The notes under the pieces were generated by a model. That model saw only the letters and a list, made by a program, of their open reading frames with translations, ran no database searches and was not told the DNA's origin. Positions 10,084 to 64,000 of a stretch of DNA of 64,000 bases are shown here, piece by piece; the stretch's first letter is position 1; every line of letters starts with the position of its first letter. This stretch comes from Tilletia caries (Eukaryota; Basidiomycota; Exobasidiomycetes; Tilletiales; Tilletiaceae): positions 2,480,001 through 2,544,000 of the forward strand of contig JALUTQ010000005.1 in the NCBI GenBank assembly GCA_032718865.1, in the 5' to 3' direction. A program made the translations under genes and the position numbers.

Positions 10084-11709
10084 ATGAGTAGTACAGGCAA
10101 GAAGAAGGGCTGGTCACCAGTATCCCCTCCCTTCGATGCGCACAACTTACCGATCTTTTGCCTTACAGCAGTGCGGGTCTGCAGACGCGGTTGCCTCGAC
10201 CCCAACGATCCGAAGATGTTGTGCCCACTGCCCTGCTTGCACAACAAGACCAAACAATGTGAGTACAGGCTGCGCACGCGCTCTGGACATTGTGCAATCT
10301 ACTCACTCTGTGCGCGTCCTCCTGCAGCATCTTCCAGCAAAACGAATCACAGCAGCGCCGAGCAGGAGCAGCCGTCTCCTGCGCCTGCCGATGGTAGCCA
10401 TCCTGCTGCAGCCAGCGTGCCCAGTCCAGTCGCCACGGCCATTCTCGGCGCTGCCGGTGCTGCCGGCGCCACTCCTGTCGTTGCTCCTGCTGCCGGTGCA
10501 GCTCCTGGTGGTGCTCTTGCTGCCGGCGCTGCTCCTGCTGGTGCTCTTGCTGCCGGCGCTGCTCCTACTGGTGCTCCTGCTGCCGCTGCCAGTGCTGGCG
10601 CTGTTGACGCTGGCGTAGAGCCTGCTCTCGGCCCTGTCGAATCCCCCGGGCCCGCTCTCGCTGCCGCTATGATGGCCGCCGAAGCAGCAGCAGCAGCCCA
10701 CATATCGACCGACCGCTCGGAAACTGATATCCGACCCCCTTCACCGTTCATTCTTCCGGACACGCAGCGCAGCCAGGGTTCAAGCTCTGGAGGGGATGAG
10801 AATCAGGGAGGGAGCAACATACAGGCTGATTTGGACGCAATCTCTGCTGAGTAGACTGTGAACATCCACGCACTGCTCGTCAATATTAAATGTTACCATA
10901 TTTCTGGCTCCTTTGTCATCGTCCTTTCAGCTGCATCATCGAACGAACACGATGCTGCCCCCAAATCCCAGAGCAAGAAAAGGGCACGCGTCAACCCAAG
11001 CGCGGAGCCGAAACTCACAGAGCTTGAGCAACGTCTGATTTGGCGTGAGTGTGTGCAGTCATGGATTCGTTGCTGGCCTGCCTCAAGAAGACTTCTTTTG
11101 CTCAATTCATGTCCGCCCCGTTTCCACAGTGGACCTGGCTCAGTCGCATGTATATGCGCTCAAGCATTTTAAGTACGAGAGCAATGCGGACGAAAGGATC
11201 AGGGTTATGAAGAGAGGGGCATGGAGGCTGATTGAACAGGTCAGTATAGCTTCCAGAATTTGTTCTCGAATCCCATGCTGAGCAGGAGCACTGTTAAACC
11301 CTCTTCTATCTCTTTTCAGGGCGCGAAGCTGTCCAGACGTACGGACATGGCCGTGGTCATTGCTCTTGCGCCGTTGGATAATGGCAAAGCCAGCGTTGAT
11401 GATGTGGTCTATGTAAGCCCGAATCTATGCGACGCTGCGCGGCCAGCATTGCGCGGAATGGCACAAACGTTTCGGAACGGATTCACAAAGACGATGCACG
11501 GCTACAGAGAGGCAGGGAGAGCGGACGCGGCGCGACAAATGGAGGCAAACAAGAGCTTGATGGCGGAGAAGGCAGAACTACTGGCACAAAACGCGGAGCT
11601 TCAAGCACAAATCCAACGACTTTCTGCTTCGACATCCGGCTCCAACACCCAATCGCGCAGCGATATCCCTTCCTCTTCCTCCGTGTCCCGCTCCAGTTCC
11701 GTCGCCTAG
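10084..11709 (+). CDS. KDZ transposon companion protein (element 1)
   Basis: A multi-exon plus-strand gene; exact introns are uncertain. The start at 10084 gives MSSTGKKKG. A short cysteine motif follows (VCRRGCLDPNDP, then CPLPCLHNKTKQC). A long Ala/Pro-rich repeat, with units like AAGAAPAGAL, fills the middle. After introns the C-terminal part reads GAKLSRRTDMAVVIALAPL, then SPNLCDAARPALRGM and a coiled coil rich in Glu, Ala and Gln. Both the Cys motif and the LS-RTD-A ... N-CD-ARP-L block recur in the element 2 partner (36597-38060), which shows this is a conserved transposon gene. No known domain is recognised; DNA-binding or assembly help for the transposase is inference. Confidence 0.6.
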
Positions 11710-14700
11710 ACTCGCTTCCGCCGCCGGTTCCAAATCGACAGAAAGACCCGAACCAGCGCGACCGCATGCTCTTGCTTGCAATAGGAAACCGTCTTCTTGA
11801 TTCTCGACAGTCCGGAGTTCCCGCACTCGGCTGCCGAAGAGTATAGGTGCTGTAGCTGAGGATCATTTCGCATGTATGTAGACAGCCTGCTGGCTGCCGA
11901 GCAATTCGTATGCCCCTTCTCATGCATTTGGTCGACGACAAAGAGTGTGTTCTTGAAGAACCCAGGTTCCCGCCGCAACGAGTAAGGTCCCAGCTGGCAG
12001 GCGAAGTCGTAAACGATGACAGATGGAGGAGACGGCCAGTGGGCAAAGATTGCGGAGAACACATCGTTCCGACCTTCTGCCTGCGGAATGACATGAAAGC
12101 CAACACAGATGCAGTGAGTGCACCAGAGAGCCATCAACCCTCCCGTACGCTGCCGCTTGACATACTCATCGTAAAACTTCCTGCATCGCACCTCTCCCTC
12201 CTGCTTTCCCTCGATCGCCGCCTGCTTCTCTCCTTTCTTCCCATCCTTCCCCTCGTCCAGTCTCGGGTAGTTGGGTCGGGTTCGACACTGAGGCGCGCCG
12301 TACAGCGTCCCGGTGTGCGTGTAGCTGGTCTGCTGTGGGATGGTTGATGAGGGCGGCGTGGGTTGGGGATCGAGAAGGGCAAGCTGGTAGTCGATTGCAT
12401 CACTGGTACTGGCCATCAGGAGTTGGAAGCTTTGGACCCACGCCGTGTCGATGAGGGTCGTTCTGTTGTGCGCAAGTAAAACAAACACATTGCCAAGGAA
12501 GGGACAATGACGAGCCAGCGTTGTAGATAGTCGAGCGAAGTGATCATCGGGGGAAGTGGTGATTGTGAGTGTGCTGATATCGGAGAGTGTTGATTGGCAG
12601 ACAGGGCGACAAAGCTGCAGAATTCCATCGCTTGCCGCAAACTGAAGCACCGCCTGCTGGAGCGCCATCTTGAAGATCGAGGGAAGGCTGGTGGTAAGGC
12701 AAATGTCGAGGAGCAGTTGCTTGAAACGGCCAGCCCAGAGACGCAAAGCGGAGGGGGTGGAGCTCGATGCGTCGATGGCGGAAGTGAACTGTTGAAGGGC
12801 TTCAACTTGCTCACTGCTGGAGGCGTCGAATGAAGTCGCTACCAATCGAGCTGCTGTCCGAGCAGCAGCAGAAGGAAGAAACGGAACAATCGTTCTCTTC
12901 CGAGCCTTATCATTGATTGCCGACCCGGGCGTTGTGGGGGGGCAGAGATCGGCGTGCTTGAGAGCGGCACTGTACGCCAGCACCACTCCATCCGCAATGA
13001 CGATGGCCGGGGAAGGACCACAGAGGGAGCAGGAAAAGGAAACGTCGAGATGCTGAAGGGAGACAAACGCAAAGTAAAGTTTGACGAATGTTGTCCTTGC
13101 GAGGAACTTTGAGGCCTTGCCGGGTGCGTGTTGCTCGTACGAATGCTGTATGGTAGACCAGAAGGCTGTGAAAGGGGTTGGAGACGCAGAAAGTTGAGAG
13201 GTGTAAGAGTTGAACACTTCGTGCGCGACAACCACGGAGTTGTTCCAATTGAAAAGCCCATACTCCGAGAGGTCAGGTCCAATGCTTCTCCCTTCTGGAC
13301 CACTTCTACAGCTACACTCCTGGGTCTCAATGCTTCTAGCCACTGTTCCGGTGCTGTAGTAGACCTTACAAGGTCTCATGCGCACCGCAACACCGCTTGC
13401 ACTGGCTTGACCGCAGTCGCAACGCACGTGTTTACCGAGCGGAAGAATGGTCGGGAGAAGATGCCCCTGTACCACTGGAGAAGCAAGCGGCTCGGAGGGG
13501 AGACGGCAGAACGGTGGGGGTGGGATAGGCCGATAGGAGCACGGGCGAGCCTGGACGTGCGCTTGTAGGCTCTCGATGTCTCGAACGATGTGTTCCAAAT
13601 CATCTAGAGATCGACACAAAACATGATTGAACCTGTCAGCCTGTCATTCGCGTGCGGCTGTGCGGCGTGCGCATACCGCACAGCGCACTTCCAATGCATC
13701 GTCCTGTTCTCGTCTACTGAGCACTGACCGATATCATTCTCCAGTGCCTCTTCATCATCTTCAACACCGTCTTGGCTGCCTAATCCCGTCGTCTCGTTCC
13801 AAAAGGCATGGGCACGCTGCCGATGAACGCAGCTTTCCGCTGGCTGTGGAGCTGATGAGCAATGAGCGGCCGAGCATGTCCAAAGGCGCACGTTAACCAG
13901 GGAGACAATACATCTCTTCCCGTCTTGGCTGCTGGCCGCGATAGTGCTCTTGGTGGAGAGCACGGAGAACCAGGCTCGGCGACCTCGTAGGTGTGCTCCA
14001 AACTGGATCGCGGTAGGATTGACTACAAATCAGAACAGAAACATGAAGTCAACATTCTGCTGACACTTTGAACGCGCGTATCACAGTCTGAGATTGGATC
14101 AAGTTCGTACTTCTCTGAGATAAAAAGCATTTCGGCTTTGAATGTCTCGCGATGTTTCAACAGTGCCTCCTTGTGGACGCAATGCATTCCACGCCGCCCA
14201 TCTGTGCAATCGCACGAGGCCATGTCCTCCGATCCTGTCGTTCCTGTTCCCTCATATAGTGTGAGGTGGTAGAATTGACCAATCTGAAGAGGGCAAGAGA
14301 CACATCATTTCTTTTTGTCAGTAGCTCGAAGCATCAGTAAGATTTGATACGATCGTCATCACTTCGCACTCGCCTCTGTGAAGCCATTGACCATCCCCTC
14401 CACAATCCAAGTACGACTATCAATGCGAGCCATGTACGCTGTGTGCTCGTGAAAGAGCATGCTCGCGTATTGCATCGAGGTTTGAGCAGAGGTTGGTTCA
14501 TTGTATTTTTGCTGGGGAAAGGTCGGGAGCTGGGGAAGGGTCGGGAAATGGATAGCTGTCGCCAAAGTCGTCGCAGTCCGTTGGCCCAAACGAAAGGCCT
14601 TCCCCGTCGTCGCCGGATGGAGGTATCGAAGGCGAGGCCAGAGGCCCGAGGGGATCAGGACGAGAATGAAGAGGCTGTGGTCTTTCATTTGTCGTTACGT

Positions 14701-38181: not shown

Positions 38182-41100
38182 TTAGCTGCAGTAGGAGACG
38201 GACTTCTTGATCCTGGACAGTCCTGCATTGCCACATTCTGCGGCAGAGCTGTTGATGTTCTGGAGCTCTGGATTCGTGTTCATGTAAGTAGATGGAAACG
38301 AAGACGTTGTGCACGTAGCATGACCATGTTGGTGCATCTGGTCCACCACAAACAGGACATTCTTGAAGAATGCAGGCTCCCTGGCGAGGCTGTACGGCGC
38401 CAGTTGACAGGCAAAGTCGTAGATGATCGTGTCGGGTGGCTTGGGCCAGTGTGTGAACACCGCAGAGAAGACATCGTTCCGTCCCTCGCACTTGGGAATG
38501 ATGTGGAACCCAACACACACCAGGTGACGGCACCAGAGCGCCATGATGCCGCCCGTCTGTCGCTGCGACACGTAGTCCGAGAAGAACTTCCTGCAAGGAC
38601 CAGGACCATCTCCAGAACTCTGCTGCTCGTCCGAATGGTTTAGATCGGCCTTCTCCCCAAATCTGGGGTAAAGAGGCCTGTCACGACATCGAGCTGCGCC
38701 GTACAAGGATCCAGACTGTGTGTAGGGGACGCTCGGCTGACGAAGGGAATCGAATGCAGGTTGTATTGGTTCGTTGGCCTGGTCTGGGCTGGTGGTGGGG
38801 TTGGGGATACCGAACATGACGTGCTGCAATCCCACCAACTTGGCTATTGAGCTGAGAAGGTCTCGAATGGAGTGGACGACGGGGGGGAGTAAAGCTGGAC
38901 TTCGTGCTTTCCGCAGTCGTGCAGCGACCTGACGAGGAGACCGAGAGAGGGGGAATGGCGGGAAAGCGTGGTGGCGGTTTTCGCGAACGCTGCAGAGGGA
39001 AATTCGACCGCACTGCTCGAAAGTTGTTGCAACGACTCCACGCAAATCGGACGACACATTTGCCAAATGCCCTCTTCGGCAGCAAGCTCGCGAAACAAGC
39101 ATCGTAAGGCGAACGAAAGGTCTGTATTTCGAAGGAGCTCGTTTCGACAGCTGCAATCGACGAACGTTTGGAGGTGGCGGAGGAACTCTTCACGCTGAGG
39201 AGCGAGACCGCGTAGATTCGCACTCTTCATCGATTCTCGGAAGCTGGACAAAGAGATGGCGCGCTGCACATTGGTGAAAGGAAGCAGGTTGTCCGCAACC
39301 TCGCGGAGAGCGGTTCGCAGGGGCAAGGTTGGCAATGGCTGGAGTACTTTGTTGGGCATAGCTCGGGTATTTGTGTGACCAATAGACGTAGTTGGAGGCT
39401 GAAGGAACGTATGACGAAGCTTCGTGCTATGAGCCAACACCACTCCATCGGCGATGATTGCAGATGGATTGGGGCCACAAGAGGGGCAAGCAAAGGCAAC
39501 ATTGACATCCTGCAGCCTGACGAACGCGAAGTAGACTTTGATGAATGTGGATTTGGCGACGAAGTGTATATCGCAGTGGTTCTCGATGTAGGCGTCTGTG
39601 ATGGTGGTGTGGAATGCAGAAAGTGGGGTAGGGGAGGCAGCAAGCTGGGAAGTATAGGAGTTCATTAGCTCGTGTGTGAAGACCAGATCCACAGACCAAT
39701 TGAAGAGCTGATACGACGCAAGATCTGGTCCAATCGTTCTGGTCTCTCCGCGTCGTCTGCGTGTGCATTGCTGCACCTCTACCTCTCTCTTCACCACACC
39801 ACGAGTATGGAAGACCATACAGGAGCGAGTAGAGGTTGGCTGGGAGGGATCGAAGCTCCTTCCGCATCCGCACCGGCCAATTCCTTCGAAGCGCAGGACA
39901 GCGGGAAGCTCGTCCACCGCCACCAGCAGCGGCTCCTCCTTCAGCTCCGCAGGAAGCTGACAGAACCGCGGCAGCCTGCGTGGTGCTGAGGAGCATGACA
40001 ACTGCTGGTGGTGTGCACGAGCGAAGACATCGTCTTGATGAATAGCTGGAGATGAATGGAAAGGAAGCAACTGTCAACTGACAACACTGTCTCGCTACTG
40101 TCTCGTTCAAACATGATGTTTTGACCACACTAACCTTGTAGCTCACTCTCCGAGCTCTCTTCTACATCATTCACATCTCGACCCAGCACATGCTCCAAAT
40201 AGGCTTTCGCACGACCTCGATGCACGCAGCTTGCTGGGGGAGACCCGCGACCGCTGCATCCGTAGGCATCGCAGCACCACTTGTCCGGGCCCACGAGCGA
40301 CATGATCGTGCGCTTTTGGTCGTGACGCAGAAGCTGGGCGCCGGACATGGTCTGCGATGCTATGACCGAGACCCAGGAGTGTCGACCATGCAGAGCCGAG
40401 GCAATCTCAATAGCTGCTGGATTGGCTGACAAACCCAGAAGTGTAGAGAGGTGGTTTAATTAGCAAGTCATTGATGAATGATTGATGCATATTGCATGAT
40501 GAATTATGACTGGATTGGCATAAGTTCTCACCTTGCCTGGAGATGACTGGCTGCGCTTTGAAGCTAGGCAGAGCTTCTAGCACTGCATCTTTGTGAATGC
40601 ATGGCTCGTGCTGCCTGCCCCTCCGGCAGTCGCAGCTGACGGACAGCTTATCTGAGCCTTCCTGCACAAAGAGATGATGAAATACACCAGTCTGGGAAGG
40701 GAAAGGACAGTTGGAACAAATCACATTCATCATTAAACGGTCTCGACGGCGGCAAGGATTAAGAACTCACGTCTGGGATGTTGTCATCTTGTACACCTTC
40801 CACTACCCAGCACCTGTCGTCCAGCCGCACGCAAAGAGCTGTCCTGTATCGGAAAAGCAATTCCACATAATCATTGACAGGCTCTGCCTCAGAATTGGCA
40901 GGGGAGGGAGACCGTCCCGAGGCAAAAAGAGGTCATCGAAGTGGGTGAAGTTGGTCTCTTCTTGGGCAGTCGGGCCAAGGTCGAATGTGGTGGCAAGCTG
41001 AGATTGAAATTGCGCTGTCGTTTCCCTCGTCGTGGAGGCGCTCAAAAGCGGATTCGGCAGCGGGGGTGGCAACAAGGAACGGATTCGACTTCCTTCAGCC

Positions 41101-43942: not shown

Positions 43943-45641
43943 TTGAGTCGCAACTCACAGGCGGACCAGTCTTCTTCTGCCTCCTCCTCTTCCTCCGACT
44001 CTTCTGACGACTGGACCGACACCTCTTCTTCCTCCTCAGACTCTTCCGATTCTGATTCAGACGTGGATGATTTGATTTCTCTTTCAGACAGCTCTTCAGA
44101 TTCTCTTTCTGACGTGTCGATGCGGACGCGAAGCTACGGCGCCTCCGACGACGACCTGGACGAAGACGCCGACGACCTTGACCAGTTACGGTCACTTATC
44201 AGCAAGCTGGAATCAAGGCGAGTTCTCCTGGCCAAGCGTTCCCCGGGACATAGAGCCCCTCTACCTTCTTCTTCGTCGACTTCGCTCTTCCGACAGCCCC
44301 TCCGACTGGATGTTCTTCCGCCACCTCGTACGCATGACCCCAGACGCATTCGACTCCATCGTCCAGCTCATTTCCGTCCACACAGAGTTTCAAGACAAGA
44401 ATCCCAAGCGTTTGGGCGCGTCGGTTGAGGAACAAGCTGCGGTCGTTCTCTACAGATTCGGACGGTACGGCAACGGCGGCGGCGTGGTGGATGTCGCATA
44501 TATCTGCGGTTGCGCGGAGGGCTCGGTGGTGGCGTACACTCGGCGGGTAGTATCTGCGCTATTCAGCTTCCGGACACAGGTGCTGTGCTGGGCCAGTGAG
44601 GAGGAGAAGCAGGAGGCGCGGCTCTGGGTCGCAGCTCAATCTCAGTGCGTTGAATTCAGCCGCGGATGGAGCATGGTGGACGGCAGTCTCATCCTCATTG
44701 CATTCAAACCAGGCAAGAAGGCATATCACCGCGAATACTTCGACAGGAAAGGCCAGTACTCCTTCAATCTACAGGCCATTGTACTCCCAACATCACTGCG
44801 CATCATCGACTTCGTAGCGGGATACAAGGGCGCGACTCAGGATTCCCGAGCATTCGCGGCGAGCGACGTGGTGAAACGGCCTCGACTCTATCTCAACGAG
44901 GGCGATTTCGTCTGGACCGACGGAGGCTACGGGTTTTCGGATCACACCTGTGGACCATACGACCATGCTATTGCCGCCAAGTCATCTGACTTCAGGAAAT
45001 TTAATGGGGCGGTCAGCAACGTGCGCGTCCGCAGCGAACACGCATTCGGCTACCTGAAGGGTCGTTTCCAATCCCTACGCGGGTTTCGCCTCCTCATTCG
45101 AGATTCCCAGGACCATACACTTGCCATCCGCGCCGTCGTGGCCACGATGGTAGCCCACAACTTGGCCTTGCGATGGGACGGCCGCGAAGAACGAAACGTC
45201 TTCGTGGACTTGTCCTCGGTGTCCGAGGAAGCCAGGATAGCATGGGACACGCTACAACAGCCTAACGAGAGGCAGGACCAGGTGGAATCGGACGCGTGGG
45301 GACGTCGACTGCGGTCGCAACGCGCCAAGATGGTCGAGGATCGTACAAGACAGGAGATAATGTCCCAGCACGGGCTCGATCAGGCACGTCGTCAAGGAGG
45401 ACATGCGTTGCGAGAAGAGCTTCATGTTGCGCTTTTCCGCTCTCTCAGTCTGCAGTTCATTGACACAACAGCGGCGTCGAGAATGAAGGACAAGACCTCT
45501 GCCGAACTCGAACAGCAGCTTGCGGCACAAGAAGCACGGCTCGAGCAACGACGGGCAGCGCGAGCGGAAAGGGGCGCACGAGGAGGAAGGGGTGGCATCC
45601 GCGGCCGCGGTGGTAGAGGTGGACGAGGTAGAGGAGTGTGA
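43943..45641 (+). CDS. Harbinger (DDE_Tnp_4/HARBI1) transposase
   Basis: The N-terminal part from 43943 is a Ser/Asp-rich acidic tail ending LRSLISKLESRR. The main frame from 44178 to 45641 carries the catalytic core. This is MVDGSLILIAF (first Asp), then YSFNLQAIV, FVAGYKGATQDSRAF, then FVWTDGGYGFSDHT (second Asp) and VRVRSEHAFGYLKGRF (Glu). The upstream helical domain includes WMFFRHLVRMTPDAFDSIVQ. The C-terminus is an Arg/Gly-rich tail (RGGRGGIRGRGG). The two frames would be continuous if one base of a C run near 44240 were removed, so an assembly error is likely and the gene may be intact. It converges with the Myb-like gene. Confidence 0.82.
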
Positions 45642-53963: not shown

Positions 53964-54031
53964 TTAGGGGGTTAGGGTTAGGGGGGTTAGGGGTTAGGGT
54001 TAGGGTTAGGGTTAGGGTTAGGGTTAGGGTT
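53964..54031 (+). repeat. Telomeric TTAGGG tract
   Basis: About ten TTAGGG units, the first three with extra G residues. The G-rich strand reads left to right, so the chromosome end lies, or lay, to the right. The tract joins directly to the 3' end of the first Penelope-like element. Confidence 0.95.
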
Positions 54032-54091
54032 AAAGTAAGAAGTGAAGTGACAACTTGAGGGAGACTTGAAGAGGAGTCGAGGATGGCGAGT

Positions 54092-54154
54092 AAGACGTGG
54101 CTACAGGTGCGCTTACTGTTTCGTCCTCAAACTGGACTCTTCAGGCGTCGTCTT
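54092..54154 (-). ncRNA. Hammerhead ribozyme, PLE copy 1
   Basis: Minus-strand core CTGAAGA (54144-54138), stem II GTCC/GGAC with a 7-nt loop, GAAA (54122-54119), stem III with four pairs including the A-U next to the cleavage site and a 9-nt loop, then UA with predicted cleavage between 54102 and 54101. Stem I has 2 + 6 pairs (54154-54145 with 54101-54092) around a two-by-two internal loop. All conserved core positions of a type I hammerhead are met. Short stem III is usual in Penelope-like elements. Confidence 0.85.
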
Positions 54155-55069
54155 TATACCTTTTTGGATCCCCTACGGGGACTTCTCTGATTTCTGTTGG
54201 GCATCCCTGTCAAGGTGCGCTTTCTACGGGGTTCTACGATGTTCCGAAGACGCATCGCGCCCCAGAAAACTAAGTGAACTTGTCCCAACAGAAGAAAAAA
54301 AGAAGGGTAACAAATTTGGGGGAGTCCCTCAAATTACGATGTGGCGTTGTGGCTTTGGGGTGGTGCCCCAAATTAAGTGCCCTCGGCCTTTGGATCGAAG
54401 TACCCTTTTTCTCAGAATGATCCGTATGACCTTTCATCTCGGTGTCAGCCGATGGGTCCTAGCTCCCTTTTTCAGGGGGGGGGTTCTCATTCGAGTACTG
54501 ACGTGGCAGTGCTGGGTCTTAATCAGGAGACCGACGGATAGCCGATTACCACAGCCAAATTTGGGGGGGGGTGTGGGGACCTCAACCAAATTGGGGGGGT
54601 CTTTTTCGGGGCTAAGTCGGTGATCTGTCATAAGTCTCAGGTAGCCGAGATGTGGGGATATAGGTCTCAGAGAGGTTTGTTTCTTCTTTTTTTGTCTTTC
54701 TGTCTATGTCGATGGTCCCATATAGGATGGCGTCATCGTTCATTCTCCATTTGTAACTCTAAGTCATAAATGGATTCACAGAAAGTACAAATCAGATTGT
54801 GTATGGCTTTCTAGTTACTAACCGGTGATCGCTCTTAGAACTGTCTTTGTACTAGACTAGTTAATCGAGACGATACTTCTCTATGTATAAGGTGCTGGAA
54901 CCTTATACTAGCCATCGGTGTTCTACTTTTTGAAAAATGTCAATTTTTTTGGCATTACTAGGCCTAAGCCGTTCCCTAAATAGGATATACCCGTCTGACC
55001 GACCCACTAAGGGGACTGCGGGAAAATAATGCCAAAAAATCGTCGAAAAATCGGCGAAAAAAAATTGAC

Positions 55070-55141
55070 GACCATACGCGGATTCGAACAAGGGACTTGG
55101 AGTGATACAGGAATCAAACTTCCTACCACTGGTCCATAGTC
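55070..55141 (-). other. tRNA-like block, PLE copy 1
   Basis: 72 nt with a 7-pair acceptor-like stem (two G-U), an A-box-like TGGACCAGTGG, a B-box-like GTTCGAATCC and an eight-T run six bases downstream, as in a Pol III gene. The T stem is poor and the anticodon loop does not close cleanly, so it is probably not a functional tRNA. Confidence 0.45.
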
Positions 55142-55230
55142 CCCGCCGAATTTGTTAAACTACTTACCCTCAAGCACTCATATACTACATTCCTACTAAG
55201 TTTATAGTATCCATATGGTACTTTCTTAAG

Positions 55231-58123
55231 TTAAGAGTTAACAATGTTATCCTTAAACCTTTCTATGGTCTCTTTGTTCTTACGGTTGAATAAGTCTCCT
55301 AGAGCGGGAGGTTTACTTTGGCTATGTATGACCCTAGTGTTAGTTGGAAGAAATTCTAGACTTTCCCAAGTCGTTAGAATAGCATCCCATACTGTCTTCA
55401 TGTTAGTACCTTCCCATAAGGGATTATATGTACTCTTAAAGATGAGAGTTTCAACCTTGTCTTTCTCAGTTGGAGTACACTCTGTCTTCCCTGTTAAGGT
55501 GAATGCACGAGTGTTCTGATAATCGACCGTTAGGAAGACTTTGTTGAGGAACCCGTGAGGGTAACCTCGTGCACGCAGTCTAAGATAGAACTTTTTTTCC
55601 GTATCTCTAAGAAGCTGTTCAATTCTGAGCAGTTCCTTACATGTCGTAGCAGTTCAGCTTTTTATCCATGCTTTCTTAACATGTAGTGGATGATACGAGG
55701 ACCATGGTATATACTGGTATGCATTCATGGGCTTTTGATATGTTTTTTTGTTAGGAGTTGAATGTTGTCTTTAACTTTAGCAGTTACGACTTCAACATCT
55801 AAGAAGGTCATTGAGCTTTTTTTGAAACATTCCAGGTGAACTTAAAGTTACTATGCTCGCTTTCAAAGTTATCGATGAAGTTTTTGTGGAGAGTCTTTGT
55901 TGCCTCTGACTACCACAAAGATGTCATCAAGATACCTGCCATAGTACTTTATGTTCTGTCCCTGTCCCGAGTTAGTCTGAGATGTCCCAGTATACTCGGC
56001 TTCTGCCATAACCAAGTTGGCATACATGGGAGCACACGAGGTGCCCATGGCTGTGCCTTTAACTTGTAGGTAGTACTTTCCCATAAAGGTAAAGTAGTTA
56101 TTACGAAGAATCTTTTTCTAGTAATTTTTAGTACTAGAGTTATGGTCTCTATAGGCAGAGAGGAGCGTTTAAGTATATTTGCCATGCATTCTAGACCCCA
56201 GTCTGTAGGGATGCTAGGGTACATTGCTTCAACGTCTCCTGAAATCAGCCAGATGTCCTCTTCAGGGTCTGGAGATCCAATGGAAGTATATCTCATTGGC
56301 AGGGTTTGTAAGAAGGTAGTCGTGTCCTTAAGGATCCAAGGGTAGTCCTTGACTATGACCTTAAGTTTTTTTCTGCAACCCAGATTGATGCATTCGTATA
56401 GAATGTATTAAAGCTAGGCACTATAGGTCTTCCTAGGACAGGACTCTTATGTACTTTAGGAAGTAACTTAAAGTAAGGAAGGGATGATTCTACATCGGAT
56501 CTCACAAGTAGCCACTTACGTTCCTGAAGGGTCAAGGACCCTCCAAGTTTGTAAATGGTTTCCTTGATCCATCTTCTGTCATCTAACCAATCTGGTTCTT
56601 CCACTTCCTTGTAAACTGCCTTGTCGGTCAGTTGTCTTAAGGCTTCTTTATAGTACCACTCGACCGGTACGATTGCCATACCCATATTCTTATCTGTAGG
56701 TAGAATTAGTAAGGACTCTTCTCTTAAGAAGATGTCCAGGGTCTTTATGGCATGGATCGGTGGGTTAGGCCGAGTGAGTTTCTTACTCATTAAAGATTCT
56801 AAGATGGCATAGCCTTTGCTAATTCCTTTTTCAAATTTAGCATTGCCCTTAGGTGCTTCCGTGTTAGATACAATATGGAATTTAGGGTTAAATTTTTTCT
56901 TGTATTGATTCTTACGGTAAGCCCATTTCCATCTTAGTCTTCGAACGAAGTCCCCATATGAATTCTTCCAAAGTTCTTCCTTTGGGTTAGGAGTGGGAAT
57001 GAATTTCATATTGTAAGAGATAATTCTCTGTACAGGGTGTGGGACCGGTGTCTTCGAAAGGTTATGGACTTGATCGTTGAAGGATCTTGAGTCGATATAT
57101 TCCAGTGAGGAATGTCTTGCGAGGAACAGCGTTCGTTCTGAAAGGGAGGCAGTAAAGAATTCTACTGGGTAAGTACTTATCTTTGCTATATCAAAGTTAG
57201 AAGGTACTGACCAGTTGCCCTTAGGGACTTTGGACTTGTTCTTTTTTTGCCGGGGGGGCCTTAGACTTAGCCTTGGTCTTTTTGAACCTTTAGCTTTTTT
57301 TGTTGTCTGGCTTCTTCCCTTTGTGGACACTCGATTTTTGCTTTACCTTTTTCCCTTGCCTTTGAATGGCTGGGCCGGTGCTTTGCTTTTTCGAAGTGCC
57401 TTTAGCGAGCGACTCCTTGACCAGTTCACCAACTGCTTGTTGCAGCGATTTACCTTTTTTTCTTGGAGTGCAAGCTGAGCTTCATAGGCTTTCTGTTGCT
57501 TAGATTCTTTAAATTCTTTTTTTCCTTAAGTGACTTGTTAGCCGCTTGAAGGTAAAGTTTATCGAGATCTTTAGCAAAGGTTGTCATGAGGACCTCCACT
57601 TTACCTCTGACGAGGGGAATGTCTGATCCAACATGATCCTTCAGAGCCTCAGCTTTGGCTTCCAGTGCACTACGAAGGTTTAGGAGGAGGGCCTGAGTAT
57701 TGCCCTCAATGACCAGCTGGTCGACTTCCGTCTTCCTAGCATCGATCAGAATGTTGAGGTAGAACCTCAAGCATTCTTCCTTCTTCTCAGCCATCCTTTC
57801 CTGAAGAGCTCGGAAAGCATCTGGGTTTGACTCCAAAGCTTCCTTACTAATCTGGAGAGGAGGAGAGTGCACTGTGCCTTTAATGGCAGGAGGGAAGTGG
57901 TCTGGGCCTAGGGCCTTTGCACGTTCCAACGCAGCCAAGTTTTTCCCTGGCCTTGAAGTATTTTTGAATACACGGAGGACGCTCTTGCGAGGTGCTCTCT
58001 CGTGATATTCTCAAGGTCGGGCAGGCTCAGCTTAGCTGAAGCAGGTCCCGAGGGATACTGCTTGTCAGATACCTTGATGGTAGTCTGACCGCCTGAGCCA
58101 CCATGGAGTCCTTCGACGTCCAT
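55231..58123 (-). CDS. Penelope-type reverse transcriptase polyprotein, PLE copy 1
   Basis: The N-terminal part (start 58123, MDVEGLHGGSGGQ) is a coiled-coil and Lys-rich region. It runs into the transcriptase, whose motifs in order are LLILPTDKNMGMAIVP, YFKLLPKVHKSPVLGRPIV, GDVEAMYPSIPTDWG (first catalytic Asp at about 56235), QVKGTAMGTSCAPMYANLV and RYLDDIFVVV (catalytic Asp pair). The thumb-like part includes FTWNVSKKSSMTFLDVEV and RARGYPHGF, ending about 55231. It is split into several frames. Most breaks fall in runs of A, T, C or G and differ between copies, so the true frame is probably continuous at about 960 residues. No endonuclease domain follows. Confidence 0.85.
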
Positions 58124-58330
58124 GGCCGTGCCAGATTGGTCACGTAGAGCTTGCGCTCCAGGCGTGGGGGGGAGGGATGTGGGGGGGAAGGGAGAGGAGA
58201 GAGGAGTAGGAGAAGGGGGGGGGAACTACAGTACTCATCGTAAAAGGTGTTGTCGAGGTGGAGTAGGGTGAAAGTAAGAAGTGAAGTGACAACTTGAGGG
58301 AGACTTGAAGAGGAGTCGAGGATGGCGAGT

Positions 58331-58393
58331 AAGACGTGGCTACAGGTGCGCTTACTGTTTCGTCCTCAAACTGGACTCTTCAGGCGTCGTCTT
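58331..58393 (-). ncRNA. Hammerhead ribozyme, PLE copy 2
   Basis: Identical in sequence to the copy 1 ribozyme; predicted cleavage between 58341 and 58340. The distance to the copy 1 site is one full unit (4239 nt). Confidence 0.85.
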
Positions 58394-59302
58394 TATACCT
58401 TTTTGGATCCCCTACGGGGACTTCTCTGATTTCTGTTGGGCATCCCTGTCAAGGTGCGCTTTCTACGGGGTTCTACGATGTTCCGAAGACGCATCGCGCC
58501 CCAGAAAACTAAGTGAACTTGTCCCAACAGAAGAAAAGAAGGGTAACAAATTTGGGGGGGAGTCCCTCAAATTTACGATGTGGCGTTGTGGCTTTGGGGT
58601 GGTGCCCCAAATTAAGTGCCCTCGGCCTTTGGATCGAAGTACCCTTTTTTTCTCAGAATGATCCGTATGACCTTTCATCTCGGTGTCAGCCGATGGGTCC
58701 TAGCTCCCTTTTTCAGGGGGGGTTCTCATTCGAGTACTGACGTGGCAGTGCTGGGTCTTAATCAGGAGACCGACGGATAGCCGATTACCACAGCCAAATT
58801 TGGGGGTGTGGGGACCTCAACCAAATTGGGGGTCTTTTCGGGGCTAAGTCGGTGATCTGTCATAAGTCTCAGGTAGCCGAGATGTGGGGATATAGGTCTC
58901 AGAGAGGTTTGTTTCTTCTTTTTTGTCTTTCTGTCTATGTCGATGGTCCCATATAGGATGGCGTCATCGTTCATTCTCCATTTGTAACTCTAAGTCATAA
59001 ATGGATTCACAGAAAGTACAAATCAGATTGTGTATGGCTTTCTAGTTACTAACCGGTGATCGCTCTTAGAACTGTCTTTGTACTAGACTAGTTAATCGAG
59101 ACGATACTTCTCTATGTATAAGGTGCTGGAACCTTATACTAGCCATCGGTGTTCTACTTTTTGAAAATGTCAATTTTTTTGGCATTACTAGGCCTAAGCC
59201 GTTCCCTAAATAGGATATACCCGTCTGACCGACCCACTAAGGGGACTGCGGGAAAATAATGCCAAAAAAATCGTCGAAAAAAATCGGCGAAAAAAAATTG
59301 AC

Positions 59303-59374
59303 GACCATACGCGGATTCGAACAAGGGACTTGGAGTGATACAGGAATCAAACTTCCTACCACTGGTCCATAGTC
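59303..59374 (-). other. tRNA-like block, PLE copy 2
   Basis: The same 72-nt sequence as in copy 1, again followed by a T run on the minus strand. Confidence 0.42.
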
Positions 59375-59463
59375 CCCGCCGAATTTGTTAAACTACTTAC
59401 CCTCAAGCACTCATATACTACATTCCTACTAAGTTTATAGTATCCATATGGTACTTTCTTAAG

Positions 59464-62353
59464 TTAAGAGTTAACAATGTTATCCTTAAACCTTTCTATG
59501 GTCTCTTTGTTCTTACGGTTGAATAAGTCTCCTAGAGCGGGAGGTTTACTTTGGCTATGTATGACTCTAGTGTTAGTTGGAAGAAATTCTAGACTTTCCC
59601 AAGTCGTTAGAATAGCATCCCATACTGTCTTCATGTTAGTACCTTCCCATAAGGGATTATATGTACTCTTAAAGATGAGAGTTTCAACCTTGTCTTTCTC
59701 AGTTGGAGTACACTCTGTCTTCCCTGTTAAGGTGAATGCACGAGTGTTCTGATAATCGACCGTTAGGAAGACTTTGTTGAGGAACCCGTGAGGGTAACCT
59801 CGTGCACGCAGTCTAAGATAGAACTTTTTTTCCGTATCTCTAAGAAGCTGTTCAATTCTGAGCAGTTCCTTACATGTCGTAGCAGTTCAGCTTTTTATCC
59901 ATGCTTTCTTAACATGTAGTGGATGATACGAGGACCATGGTATATACTGGTATGCATTCATGGGCTTTTTGATATGTTTTTTTGTTAGGAGTTGAATGTT
60001 GTCTTTAACTTTAGCAGTTACGACTTCAACATCTAAGAAGGTCATTGAGCTTTTTTTGAAACATTCCAGGTGAACTTAAAGTTACTATGCTCGCTTTCAA
60101 AGTTATCGATGAAGTTTTTGTGGAGAGTCTTTGTTGCCTCTGACTACCACAAAGATGTCATCAAGATACCTGCCATAGTACTTTATGTTCTGTCCCTGTC
60201 CCGAGTTAGTCTGAGATGTCCCAGTATACTCGGCTTCTGCCATAACCAAGTTGGCATACATGGGAGCACACGAGGTGCCCATGGCTGTGCCTTTAACTTG
60301 TAGGTAGTACTTTCCCATAAAGGTAAAGTAGTTATTACGAAGAATCTTTTTCTAGTAATTTTAGTACTAGAGTTATGGTCTCTATAGGCAGAGAGGAGCG
60401 TTTAAGTATATTTGCCATGCATTCTAGACCCCAGTCTGTAGGGATGCTAGGGTACATTGCTTCAACGTCTCCTGAAATCAGCCAGATGTCCTCTTCAGGG
60501 TCTGGAGATCCAATGGAAGTATATCTCATTGGCAGGGTTTGTAAGAAGGTAGTCGTGTCCTTAAGGATCCAAGGGTAGTCCTTGACTATGACCTTAAGTT
60601 TTTTTCTGCAACCCAGATTGATGCATTCGTATAGAATGTATTAAAGCTAGGCACTATAGGTCTTCCTAGGACAGGACTCTTATGTACTTTAGGAAGTAAC
60701 TTAAAGTAAGGAAGGGATGATTCTACATCGGATCTCACAAGTAGCCACTTACGTTCCTGAAGGGTCAAGGACCCTCCAAGTTTGTAAATGGTTTCCTTGA
60801 TCCATCTTCTGTCATCTAACCAATCTGGTTCTTCCACTTCCTTGTAAACTGCCTTGTCGGTCAGTTGTCTTAAGGCTTCTTTATAGTACCACTCGACCGG
60901 TACGATTGCCATACCCATATTCTTATCTGTAGGTAGAATTAGTAAGGACTCTTCTCTTAAGAAGATGTCCAGGGTCTTTATGGCATGTATCGGTGGGTTA
61001 GGCCGAGTGAGTTTCTTACTCATTAAAGATTCTAAGATGGCATAGCCTTTGCTAATTCCTTTTTTTCAAATTTAGCATTGCCCTTAGGTGCTTCCGTGTT
61101 AGATACAATATGGAATTTAGGGTTAAATTCTTTCTTGTATTGATTCTTACGGTAAGCCCATTTCCATCTTAGTCTTCGAACGAAGTCCCCATATGAATTC
61201 TTCCAAAGTTCTTCCTTTGGGTTAGGAGTGGGAATGAATTTCATATTGTAAGAGATAATTCTCTGTACAGGGTGTGGGACCGGTGTCTTCGAAAGGTTAT
61301 GGACTTGATCGTTGAAGGATCTTGAGTCGATATATTCCAGTGAGGAATGTCTTGCGAGGAACAGCGTTCGTTCTGAAAGGGAGGCAGTAAAGAATTCCAC
61401 TGGGTAAGTACTTATCTTTGCTATATCAAAGTTAGAAGGTACTGACCAGTTGCCCTTAGGGACTTTGGACTTGTTCTTTTTTTGCCGGGGGGCCTTAGAC
61501 TTAGCCTTGGTCTTTTGAACCTTTAGCTTTTTTGTTGTCTGGCTTCTTCCCTTTGTGGACACTCGATTTTGCTTTACCTTTTTCCCTTGCCTTTGAATGG
61601 CTGGGCCGGTGCTTTGCTTTTTCGAAGTGCCTTTAGCGAGCGACTCCTTGACCAGTTCACCAACTGCTTGTTGCAGCGATTTACCTTTTTTTCTTGGAGT
61701 GCAAGCTGAGCTTCATAGGCTTTCTGTTGCTTAGATTCTTTAAATTCTTTTTTTCCTTAAGTGACTTGTTAGCCGCTTGAAGGTAAAGTTTATCGAGATC
61801 TTTAGCAAAGGTTGTCATGAGGACCTCCACTTTACCTCTGACGAGGGGAATGTCTGATCCAACATGATCCTTCAGAGCCTCAGCTTTGGCTTCCAGTGCA
61901 CTACGAAGGTTTAGGAGGAGGGCCTGAGTATTGCCCTCAATGACCAGCTGGTCGACTTCCGTCTTCCTAGCATCGATCAGAATGTTGAGGTAGAACCTCA
62001 AGCATTCTTCCTTCTTCTCAGCCATCCTTTCCTGAAGAGTTTGGAAAGCATCTGGGTTTGACTCCAAAGCTTCCTTACTAATCTGGAGAGGAGGAGAGTG
62101 CACTGTGCCTTTAATGGCAGGAGGGAAGTGGTCTGGGCCTAGGGCCTTTGCACGTTCCAACGCAGCCAAGTTTTTCCCTGGCCTTGAAGTATTTTGAATA
62201 CACGGAGGACGCTCTTGCGAGGTGCTCTCTCGTGATATTCTCAAGGTCGGGCAGGCTCAGCTTAGCTGAAGCAGGTCCCGAGGGATACTGCTTGTCAGAT
62301 ACCTTGATGGTAGTCTGACCGCCTGAGCCACCATGGAGTCCTTCGACGTCCAT
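59464..62353 (-). CDS. Penelope-type reverse transcriptase polyprotein, PLE copy 2
   Basis: The same protein as copy 1: N-terminal coiled-coil part 62353-61681, then the transcriptase with LPTDKNMGMAIVP, LPKVHKSPVLGRP, GDVEAMYPSI, KGTAMGTSCAPMYANLV and YLDDIFVVV. Frame breaks are at partly different homopolymers from copy 1 (for example near 61060, where a T run is longer). In this copy the Lys-rich linker near 61520 is read in a different frame from copy 1. An internal TGA near 59895 disappears if one A is removed from a run of five. Confidence 0.83.
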
Positions 62354-62558
62354 GGCCGTGCCAGATTGGTCACGTAGAGCTTGCGCTCCAGGCGTGGGGG
62401 GAGGGATGTGGGGGGGAAGGGAGAGGAGAGAGGAGTAGGAGAAGGGGGGGAACTACAGTACTCATCGTAAAAAGGTGTTGTCGAGGTGGAGTAGGGTGAA
62501 AGTAAGAAGTGAAGTGACAACTTGAGGGAGACTTGAAGAGGAGTCGAGGATGGCGAGT

Positions 62559-62621
62559 AAGACGTGGCTACAGGTGCGCTTACTGTTTCGTCCTCAAACT
62601 GGACTCTTCAGGCGTCGTCTT
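62559..62621 (-). ncRNA. Hammerhead ribozyme, PLE copy 3
   Basis: The same core and stems as copies 1 and 2; predicted cleavage between 62569 and 62568. Confidence 0.85.
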
Positions 62622-63529
62622 TATACCTTTTTGGATCCCCTACGGGGGACTTCTCTGATTTCTGTTGGGCATCCCTGTCAAGGTGCGCTTTCTACGGGGT
62701 TCTACGATGTTCCGAAGACGCATCGCGCCCCAGAAAACTAAGTGAACTTGTCCCAACAGAAGAAAGAAGGGTAACTAATTTGGGGGGGAGTCCCTCAAAT
62801 TTCGATGTGGCGTTGTGGCTTTGGGGTGGTGCCCCAAATTAAGTGCCCTCGGCCTTTGGATCGAAGTACCCTTTTTTTCTCAGAATGATCCGTATGACCT
62901 TTCATCTCGGTGTCAGCCGATGGGTCCTAGCTCCCTTTTCAGGGGGGGTTCTCATTCGAGTACTGACGTGGCAGTGCTGGGTCTTAATCAGGAGACCGAC
63001 GGATAGCCGATTACCACAGCCAAATTTGGGGGGTGTGGGGACCTCAACCAAATTGGGGGGGTCTTTCGGGGCTAAGTCGGTGATCTGTCATAAGTCTCAG
63101 GTAGCCGAGATGTGGGGATATAGGTCTCAGAGAGGTTTGTTTCTTCTTTTTGTCTTTCTGTCTATGTCGATGGTCCCATATAGGATGGCGTCATCGTTCA
63201 TTCTCCATTTGTAACTCTAAGTCATAAATGGATTCACAGAAAGTACAAATCAGATTGTGTATGGCTTTCTAGTTACTAACCGGTGATCGCTCTTAGAGCT
63301 GTCTTTGTACTAGACTAGTTAATCGAGACGATACTTCTCTATGTATAAGGTGCTGGAACCTTATACTAGCCATCGGTGTTCTACTTTTTGAAAAATGTCA
63401 ATTTTTTTGGCATTACTAGGCCTAAGCCGTTCCCTAAATAGGATATACCCGTCTGACCGACCCACTAAGGGGACTGCGGGAAAAATAATGCCAAAAATCG
63501 TCGAAAAAAATCGGCGAAAAAAAATTGAC

Positions 63530-63601
63530 GACCATACGCGGATTCGAACAAGGGACTTGGAGTGATACAGGAATCAAACTTCCTACCACTGGTCCATAGT
63601 C
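63530..63601 (-). other. tRNA-like block, PLE copy 3
   Basis: Third copy of the 72-nt tRNA-like sequence with its T run. Confidence 0.42.
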
Positions 63602-63690
63602 CCCGCCGAATTTGTTAAACTACTTACCCTCAAGCACTCATATACTACATTCCTACTAAGTTTATAGTATCCATATGGTACTTTCTTAAG

Positions 63691-64000
63691 TTAAGAGTTA
63701 ACAATGTTATCCTTAAACCTTTCTATGGTCTCTTTGTTCTTACGGTTGAATAAGTCTCCTAGAGCGGGAGGTTTACTTTGGCTATGTATGACTCTAGTGT
63801 TAGTTGGAAGAAATTCTAGACTTTCCCAAGTCGTTAGAATAGCATCCCATACTGTCTTCATGTTAGTACCTTCCCATAAGGGATTATATGTACTCTTAAA
63901 GATGAGAGTTTCAACCTTGTCTTTCTCAGTTGGAGTACACTCTGTCTTCCCTGTTAAGGTGAATGCACGAGTGTTCTGATAATCGACCGTTAGGAAGACT
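63691..64000 (-). CDS. Penelope-type reverse transcriptase, C-terminal fragment, PLE copy 3
   Basis: Only the last roughly 100 codons lie in the window (minus strand, ending at 63691 with KDNIVNS). The sequence matches the end of copies 1 and 2 and the frame is open here. The catalytic motifs would lie beyond 64000. Confidence 0.75.
   Translation of the reverse strand, partial: VFLTVDYQNTRAFTLTGKTECTPTEKDKVETLIFKSTYNPLWEGTNMKTVWDAILTTWESLEFLPTNTRVIHSQSKPPALGDLFNRKNKETIERFKDNIVNS

Follow-up and report, generated by a model that had tools for sequence, protein, structure and literature searches.

A telomeric Penelope-like array with a 3' hammerhead-like motif in Tilletia caries, probably built from RNA uncut at the motif

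Telomeric Penelope-like elements and the array of Tilletia caries

In Drosophila, HeT-A elements form head-to-tail units that are copied from RNA onto chromosome ends, as is probably also the case for the telomeric array of the fungus Tilletia caries that is the subject of this report; HeT-A differs in being a non-long terminal repeat (non-LTR) element that occurs without telomerase repeats and without a hammerhead. Telomeric Penelope-like elements of fungi include Coprina, and a 2014 paper on the hammerheads of Penelope-like elements reportedly includes fungal cases. The Terminons of bdelloid rotifers are described, in the sections of PMC6431247 devoted to them, as telomeric Penelope-like elements with a 3' hammerhead. 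For the lizard element Poseidon PAc of Anolis, the relevant part of PMC11167929 reports insertion without hammerhead cleavage and names unprocessed RNA as the dominant substrate. The window analysed here is a stretch of 64,000 nucleotides (nt) of T. caries (GenBank assembly GCA_032718865.1, contig JALUTQ010000005.1, positions 2,480,001 to 2,544,000). It forms the right part of contig C5, which ends 336 nt past the window; the genome amounts to 38.1 Mb in 40 contigs. The best named matches to one protein encoded in the window come from Tilletia (64% in T. walkeri, 63% in T. indica).

The array adds a new fungal case to the known telomeric Penelope-like elements that carry a 3' hammerhead; in the part of the literature that was covered, no fungal telomeric Penelope-like case with a ribozyme was recognised. 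Like the Terminons and Athena elements, as characterised in the pertinent sections of PMC6431247, the element has a putative Penelope-type reverse transcriptase (RT) in which no endonuclease was detected, resides at telomeres, carries a 3' hammerhead followed by telomere-complementary sequence and forms head-to-tail units with telomere-capped 5' truncations. It differs from the Terminons, as portrayed there, in its unit of 4.2 kb instead of giant units of up to 40 kb, in the lack of an identified accessory gene, in its host repeat TTAGGG and in its fungal host. Furthermore, the hammerhead of the Terminons is followed at once by C-rich telomere-complementary repeats, whereas the complementary stretch lies 70 nt beyond the cut here. 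The telomeric Penelope-like case of Agaricus is also fungal and telomere-linked; it is likened by description only, and the text on it in PMC7473861 does not mention a ribozyme. The type I motif in a repeat region is shared with other Penelope-like hammerheads, the forms of which are mostly minimal and without helix III according to the portions of PMC6155905 and PMC7761336 that treat them, whereas T. caries has a stem III of 4 bp with a 9-nt loop. PAc has tandem units with a hammerhead as well, and its insertion in vitro uses unprocessed RNA; unlike the T. caries element, it possesses a GIY-YIG endonuclease, and its target is AT-rich DNA instead of telomeres, as stated in the corresponding part of PMC11167929.

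The best explanation, which is given a probability of about two in three as a whole, is that the T. caries element is a telomere-attached Penelope-like element of ~4.2 kb, in which an endonuclease was not detected, and that its templates are read-through RNAs that remain uncut at the hammerhead and are reverse-transcribed onto the telomere. Such an RNA would span at least one unit and run into C-rich telomere sequence or into the CACCCTA of the next unit, and it would pair with the G-rich overhang of the chromosome. Copying by the RT would then start 70 nt beyond the hammerhead and often extend over several units, and the unfinished end would be healed by telomerase.

Junctions of the array

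Three head-to-tail units lie in the window, and their coding strand is the minus strand, so that the element 3' end faces inward. Unit 1 (54032..58270, minus strand, 4239 bp) is attached by its 3' end to a host TTAGGG telomeric tract (53969..54031, plus strand; the row of Tandem Repeats Finder spans 53969-54032), the G-rich strand of which points to the right end of the contig; tract and junction were confirmed by reading the sequence. Unit 2 (58271..62498, minus strand, 4228 bp) is joined directly to unit 1, as was also read, and unit 3 (62499..64000, minus strand) continues beyond the window to the contig end, which is without telomere repeats. The 5' edge of unit 1 carries CACCCTA on the minus strand (58264..58270), which is complementary to one TTAGGG repeat and lies at the joint between the two units, and the same letters were read on the minus strand at the second joint (62492-62498). 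Units were compared to unit 2, which defines the q coordinates used below (q1-4228, with q1 at the element 3' end). By genome-wide patterns, unit 3' tails occur at 26 contig ends and are uniformly oriented relative to the end; 78-79 such tails were counted by two patterns.

The 3' ends of the units bear most directly on the question of whether templates were cut. The reference unit aligned to the stretches read gave 72 matches, four of which were clipped by the edge of a stretch, leaving 68 usable 3' ends. Of these, 64 lie at q1, 70 nt beyond the predicted cut, and the remaining four, which belong to copies with 90-98% identity, lie at q2, q3, q7 and q12; no 3' end among the 68 lies at q71, the predicted cut. 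An exact pattern of telomere repeats joined to the sequence just upstream of the cut had no match genome-wide. Since the 3' ends keep the 70-nt tail (q1-70; 54032..54101 on the minus strand in unit 1) and none lies at the cut, the tail was present in the RNA that was copied into DNA; the idea of a preliminary description that cut ends seed telomere attachment is not supported by these counts. The 64 exact 3' ends are flanked by TTAGGGTT in 30 cases, by TTAGGGTG in 10, by TTAGGTT in one and by the complete 5' end of another unit in 23. The two main junction forms would fit two template tails, either C-rich telomere read-through (AACCCTAA) or the CACCCTA of the next unit.

At the other side of the units, 28 complete 5' ends were found with a pattern allowing one mismatch. 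All 28 run directly into another unit, which was seen by pattern for 26 of them and by reading for the two on C30 and C35. Telomere repeats cap none of these ends, GTTAGGG being absent within 14 nt of every one. The truncated units that were read are capped by telomere repeats (only ~10 nt of them on C32), except for a unit on C27 that is truncated at q255 and flanked by unrelated sequence. Joined units also resemble each other: their mean difference at 16 variable sites is 0.143 (15 pairs), compared to 0.298 between different contig ends (849 pairs) and 0.339 between non-joined units on the same end (39 pairs), and the joined value was reached in 5 of 5000 permutations and in 6 of 5000 in a second run. 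This test used only units of more than 800 nt and 97% identity, and the 16 sites are what remains of 25 variable sites after removal by eye of nine, mostly in or beside runs; with all 25 sites, the values are 0.174 for joined units versus 0.333, and 0 of 5000 permutations reached the former. The simplest reading is that one template gave rise to several units, with the RT passing ribozymes that had not cut; the alternative is DNA duplication. The earlier proposal that unit-length cut RNAs build the array is not supported by the complete 5' ends, which all continue into a unit, nor by the likeness of joined units.

Two further observations concern truncations and sequence quality. Telomere-capped truncations recur at q1200-1232 on five contig ends, and a truncation at q866 occurs twice on C40, in two adjacent units; either hotspots or copying between telomeres could account for both. 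The outermost copies at C30:1-3365 have 90-92% identity, many small indels and an altered core, which probably reflects poor sequence quality at the contig end and not the age of the copies.

The hammerhead-like motif and its folding

Each of the three units in the window carries a hammerhead-like motif of 63 nt on the minus strand (q61-123), at 54092..54154 with a predicted cut at 54102/54101, at 58331..58393 with a predicted cut at 58341/58340 and at 62559..62621 with a predicted cut at 62569/62568, and the three sequences are identical. The 5' arm of stem I is followed by CUGAAGA, a GUCC/GGAC stem II with a 7-nt loop and GAAA, and then by a stem III of A-U plus CAG/CUG with a 9-nt loop, the triplet GUA and the 3' arm of stem I, which consists of 2 bp, a 2x2 internal loop and 6 bp. 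A CUGANGA and GAAA core with stem II in between, stems I and III, an NUH triplet (GUA) and an open stem I are the attributes of a type I hammerhead, and the motif sits in sense orientation relative to the RT. The core, the three stems and the cleavage site that the preliminary description had placed at these coordinates are thus all present, its predicted cut at 54102/54101 agrees with the descriptor result, and its picture of a tandem telomeric Penelope-like array with one type I hammerhead-like motif per unit, sense to the RT, is supported.

A hammerhead descriptor, the helix lengths of which were set after the motif had been seen, matched three times in the window and not once in 150 windows generated by a first-order Markov model. 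The covariance-model check suggested earlier largely failed. Rfam was searched with stretches of three lengths. No match reached the gathering cut-off, and a stretch of 4.7 kb yielded no hammerhead at E<=10; when only 111 nt were searched, the single match was Hammerhead_1 (RF00163) at the correct place and on the correct strand, with 13.7 bits against a gathering score of 34 and E=1. Rfam support for the hammerhead is weak, and the claim does not rest on it.

Among 65 units read that span the motif, 59 are identical in it. The six deviating motifs comprise one with an extra A in GAAA, one lacking 2 nt in loop III and four with an altered core, three of the latter being located in copies that adjoin contig ends. 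It had been claimed that every copy carries the ribozyme; this holds for nearly every copy, given the six deviating motifs and six very short units in which the motif is missing altogether or without its 5' part. The genome contains 74 intact core-plus-stem-II motifs, all within 27.1 kb of a contig end, with motifs outside the stretches read being assigned to the element by their position beside its 3' tails. The hammerhead is a real motif in nearly every copy, for which cleavage is predicted. Conservation among copies was dropped as evidence for the helices, as the copies are too young: the clean columns of q57-125 contain no substitution in 3993, which is uninformative, since only 25 of 4228 sites vary in at least two copies. 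DNA of diverged relatives was sought for covariation; viral contigs gave none, and genome contigs gave one contaminating contig, L059, in which neither Rfam nor a looser descriptor found a hammerhead.

This contig holds a distant tandem RT element, and between two of its units (L059:1145-1180) CTGACGAAGACC...GGTCGAAA with a downstream GTA was read, a hammerhead-like sequence with two extra bases that was missed by both searches. In T. caries itself, two units, at C1:500-580 and on C30 near 23273, differ from the other units in their outermost 3' tail (~q1-22), which is followed by the shared part, and are a variant subfamily; the C30 unit keeps an intact motif, and an intact core adjoins the C1 unit.

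All fold energies given here leave out tertiary contacts. The hammerhead alone lies 1.2 kcal/mol above the minimum free energy, and for a stretch of 67 nt the fold of minimum free energy is a structure other than the hammerhead (z=-0.03). In the presence of the 70-nt tail, which is predicted to pair with the ribozyme, the hammerhead is disfavoured by 12.5 kcal/mol, its predicted population being ~1e-9; the effect sets in between transcripts that end at q41 and those that end at q36. A single long hairpin is predicted for the 129-nt 3' end, and it is unremarkable (z=-1.47).

Alternatives, coding content and implications

Several observations weigh against an array built from uncut read-through RNA. 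Six very short units of ~32-86 nt exist, each of which is only the element 3' tail between telomere repeats; they end at ~q32 (C1:500-640), at q58-59 and q85-86 (both at C27:14200-14500), at q70-72 (C5:21840-21911), at q74-77 (C34:12524-12600) and at q81-84 (C23:1351-1440). The C5 unit stops at the cut, give or take 2 nt that could equally belong to the telomere repeat, and four others end no more than 16 nt from the cut, which would fit cut or stalled templates. Direct joints between similar neighbours could also result from DNA tandem duplication or copying between telomeres. Homopolymers and contig ends show errors in the consensus, and the arrays may be collapsed. Shuffled tails disfavour the hammerhead by 8.9 kcal/mol on average (standard deviation 3.1) and equal or exceed the real tail in 63 of 500 cases; selection for a tail trap is therefore not shown, and the trap may be only base composition. 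Finally, none of the RT relatives listed, 120 out of 149, bears the name Penelope.

According to the preliminary description, a minus-strand read-through RNA would be cut once per unit into 4.2-kb RNAs, and cut ends may attach to telomeres; the model weighed here takes these RNAs as the replication form. The single motif per unit in head-to-tail arrays speaks for this model, as does the very short unit that ends at q70-72 beside telomere repeats; as a general account of the very short units, however, the cut was rejected, as only one of the six ends there. The two places that match a cut-plus-telomere pattern are stand-alone short units rather than a complete unit with a 70-nt leader, which speaks against the model. 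The motif (q61-123) contains the ends of four very short units, which are four of the 36 telomere-capped 5' ends; 0.54 would be expected there under a uniform distribution (p=0.002) and 1.47 from the local density (p=0.05). This comparison was chosen after the fact, and the test is not leaned on. The 36 ends omit C27R q255, which has a non-telomeric flank, the noisy C30L q1613, C39L q266, for which no flank was seen, a C23L unit of which only the end was seen (q2708) and units running off contig ends, and they count the two C40 q866 ends separately, though these are possibly one duplication. Each of the following can account for the ends in the motif: cut templates, an RT that stalls at the fold, healing where the letters resemble the telomere repeat, or chance. 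Together with the short unit at the cut, these ends weakly favour the model of once-per-unit cutting, which is nevertheless improbable in view of the 68 of 68 3' ends that keep all or nearly all of the tail, the lack of any exact attachment at the cut and the 28 of 28 complete 5' ends that run into a unit. The junctions argue that cutting by the ribozyme is not how the templates of the array are made; if the hammerhead cleaves, it would more likely trim leaders or mRNAs, or destroy templates, than make them.

It is unlikely, though a shade less so, that the arrays grow by DNA recombination or inter-telomere copying, with reverse transcription being rare and the ribozyme a relic. The likeness of joined units, the truncation at q866 common to two adjacent C40 units and the five truncation points at q1200-1232 on five contig ends would be expected from such growth, whereas the same 3' nucleotide on many chromosome ends combined with 5' truncations scattered over the unit is a signature of RT priming; the 74 intact motif cores also speak against a relic, although the copies are too young to show selection. 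That the motif is a coincidence within a long 3' hairpin serving RT binding is very improbable: the Rfam score below cut-off, the folding of the 129-nt 3' end as one hairpin and a minimum-energy fold other than the hammerhead are in its favour, but the full core with its helices is absent from the 150 random windows, the hairpin itself is unremarkable and hammerheads are a known feature of Penelope-like elements in the parts of PMC6155905 and PMC7761336 on them. Read-through RNA uncut at the hammerhead stays the preferred origin of the templates. A further reading, to which little credence is given, is that the hammerhead acts as a template-destroying switch: the cut would remove the 70-nt priming tail and leave an mRNA-type fragment, and tail-folded RNAs would stay whole and become templates.

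The coding content was examined in unit 1, where all of the following features lie on the minus strand. From the ORF (open reading frame) list, 56353..57342 covers an N-terminal region and the RT start, 55949..56407 is an RT fragment, the frames being interrupted at homopolymer runs, which vary among copies, and 55231..55653 is a C-terminal RT fragment up to the stop, in which a GIY-YIG domain was not found; an upstream ORF fragment (57450..58010) resembles by eye the N-terminus of P0002, a relative with 64% identity. An open RT frame of 531 amino acids is present in another copy of the element. Searches with the RT retrieved 149 relatives at E<=0.001, Pfam recognised RVT_1 and no other domain in the RT frame, and matches in NCBIfam and among solved structures are generic RTs only. 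No Pfam match to GIY-YIG was obtained in the RT frame, the two upstream frames or P0002, the frames being broken in many copies. The RT is ~28-31% identical to RTs with a C-terminal GIY-YIG, which is carried by the two relatives tested (P0081 and P0089). An RT with a C-terminal GIY-YIG is the layout of Penelope-like elements as outlined in the relevant section of PMC11167929, and the element is provisionally assigned to the Penelope clade because of this layout in its relatives and its telomere anatomy. As in telomeric Penelope-like elements lacking an endonuclease, 3' ends sit on telomere repeats, truncations are capped and orientation is uniform, with the unit on C27 as the exception. No accessory ORF was identified as a gene; some antisense or overlapping frames of more than 100 amino acids are present in the ORF list.

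Directly after the RT stop, once per unit, a stretch (55062-55148, minus strand) appears tRNA-like by eye, with letters resembling box A and box B and with T runs; neither ARAGORN nor Rfam supports a tRNA, and the fold has z=-1.68. Elsewhere in the window, two proteins with a CxC4 domain, which accompanies KDZ transposases, are encoded at 11706-13643 and 38844-40073 on the minus strand and a DDE_Tnp_4 transposase at 44076-45641 on the plus strand, and the subtelomere thus carries DNA transposons.

Dozens of insertion junctions provide a DNA record of whether the templates were cut, and the verdict, uncut, agrees with the in vitro result for the Anolis element as given in the insertion experiments of PMC11167929. 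The junctions reduce the question to a simple comparison of RNA with and without the tail. If the hammerhead were a template-destroying switch, the copy number at chromosome ends would be set by the choice of fold in the 3' end, and the cut-off tail itself would occasionally be copied as a 70-nt unit.

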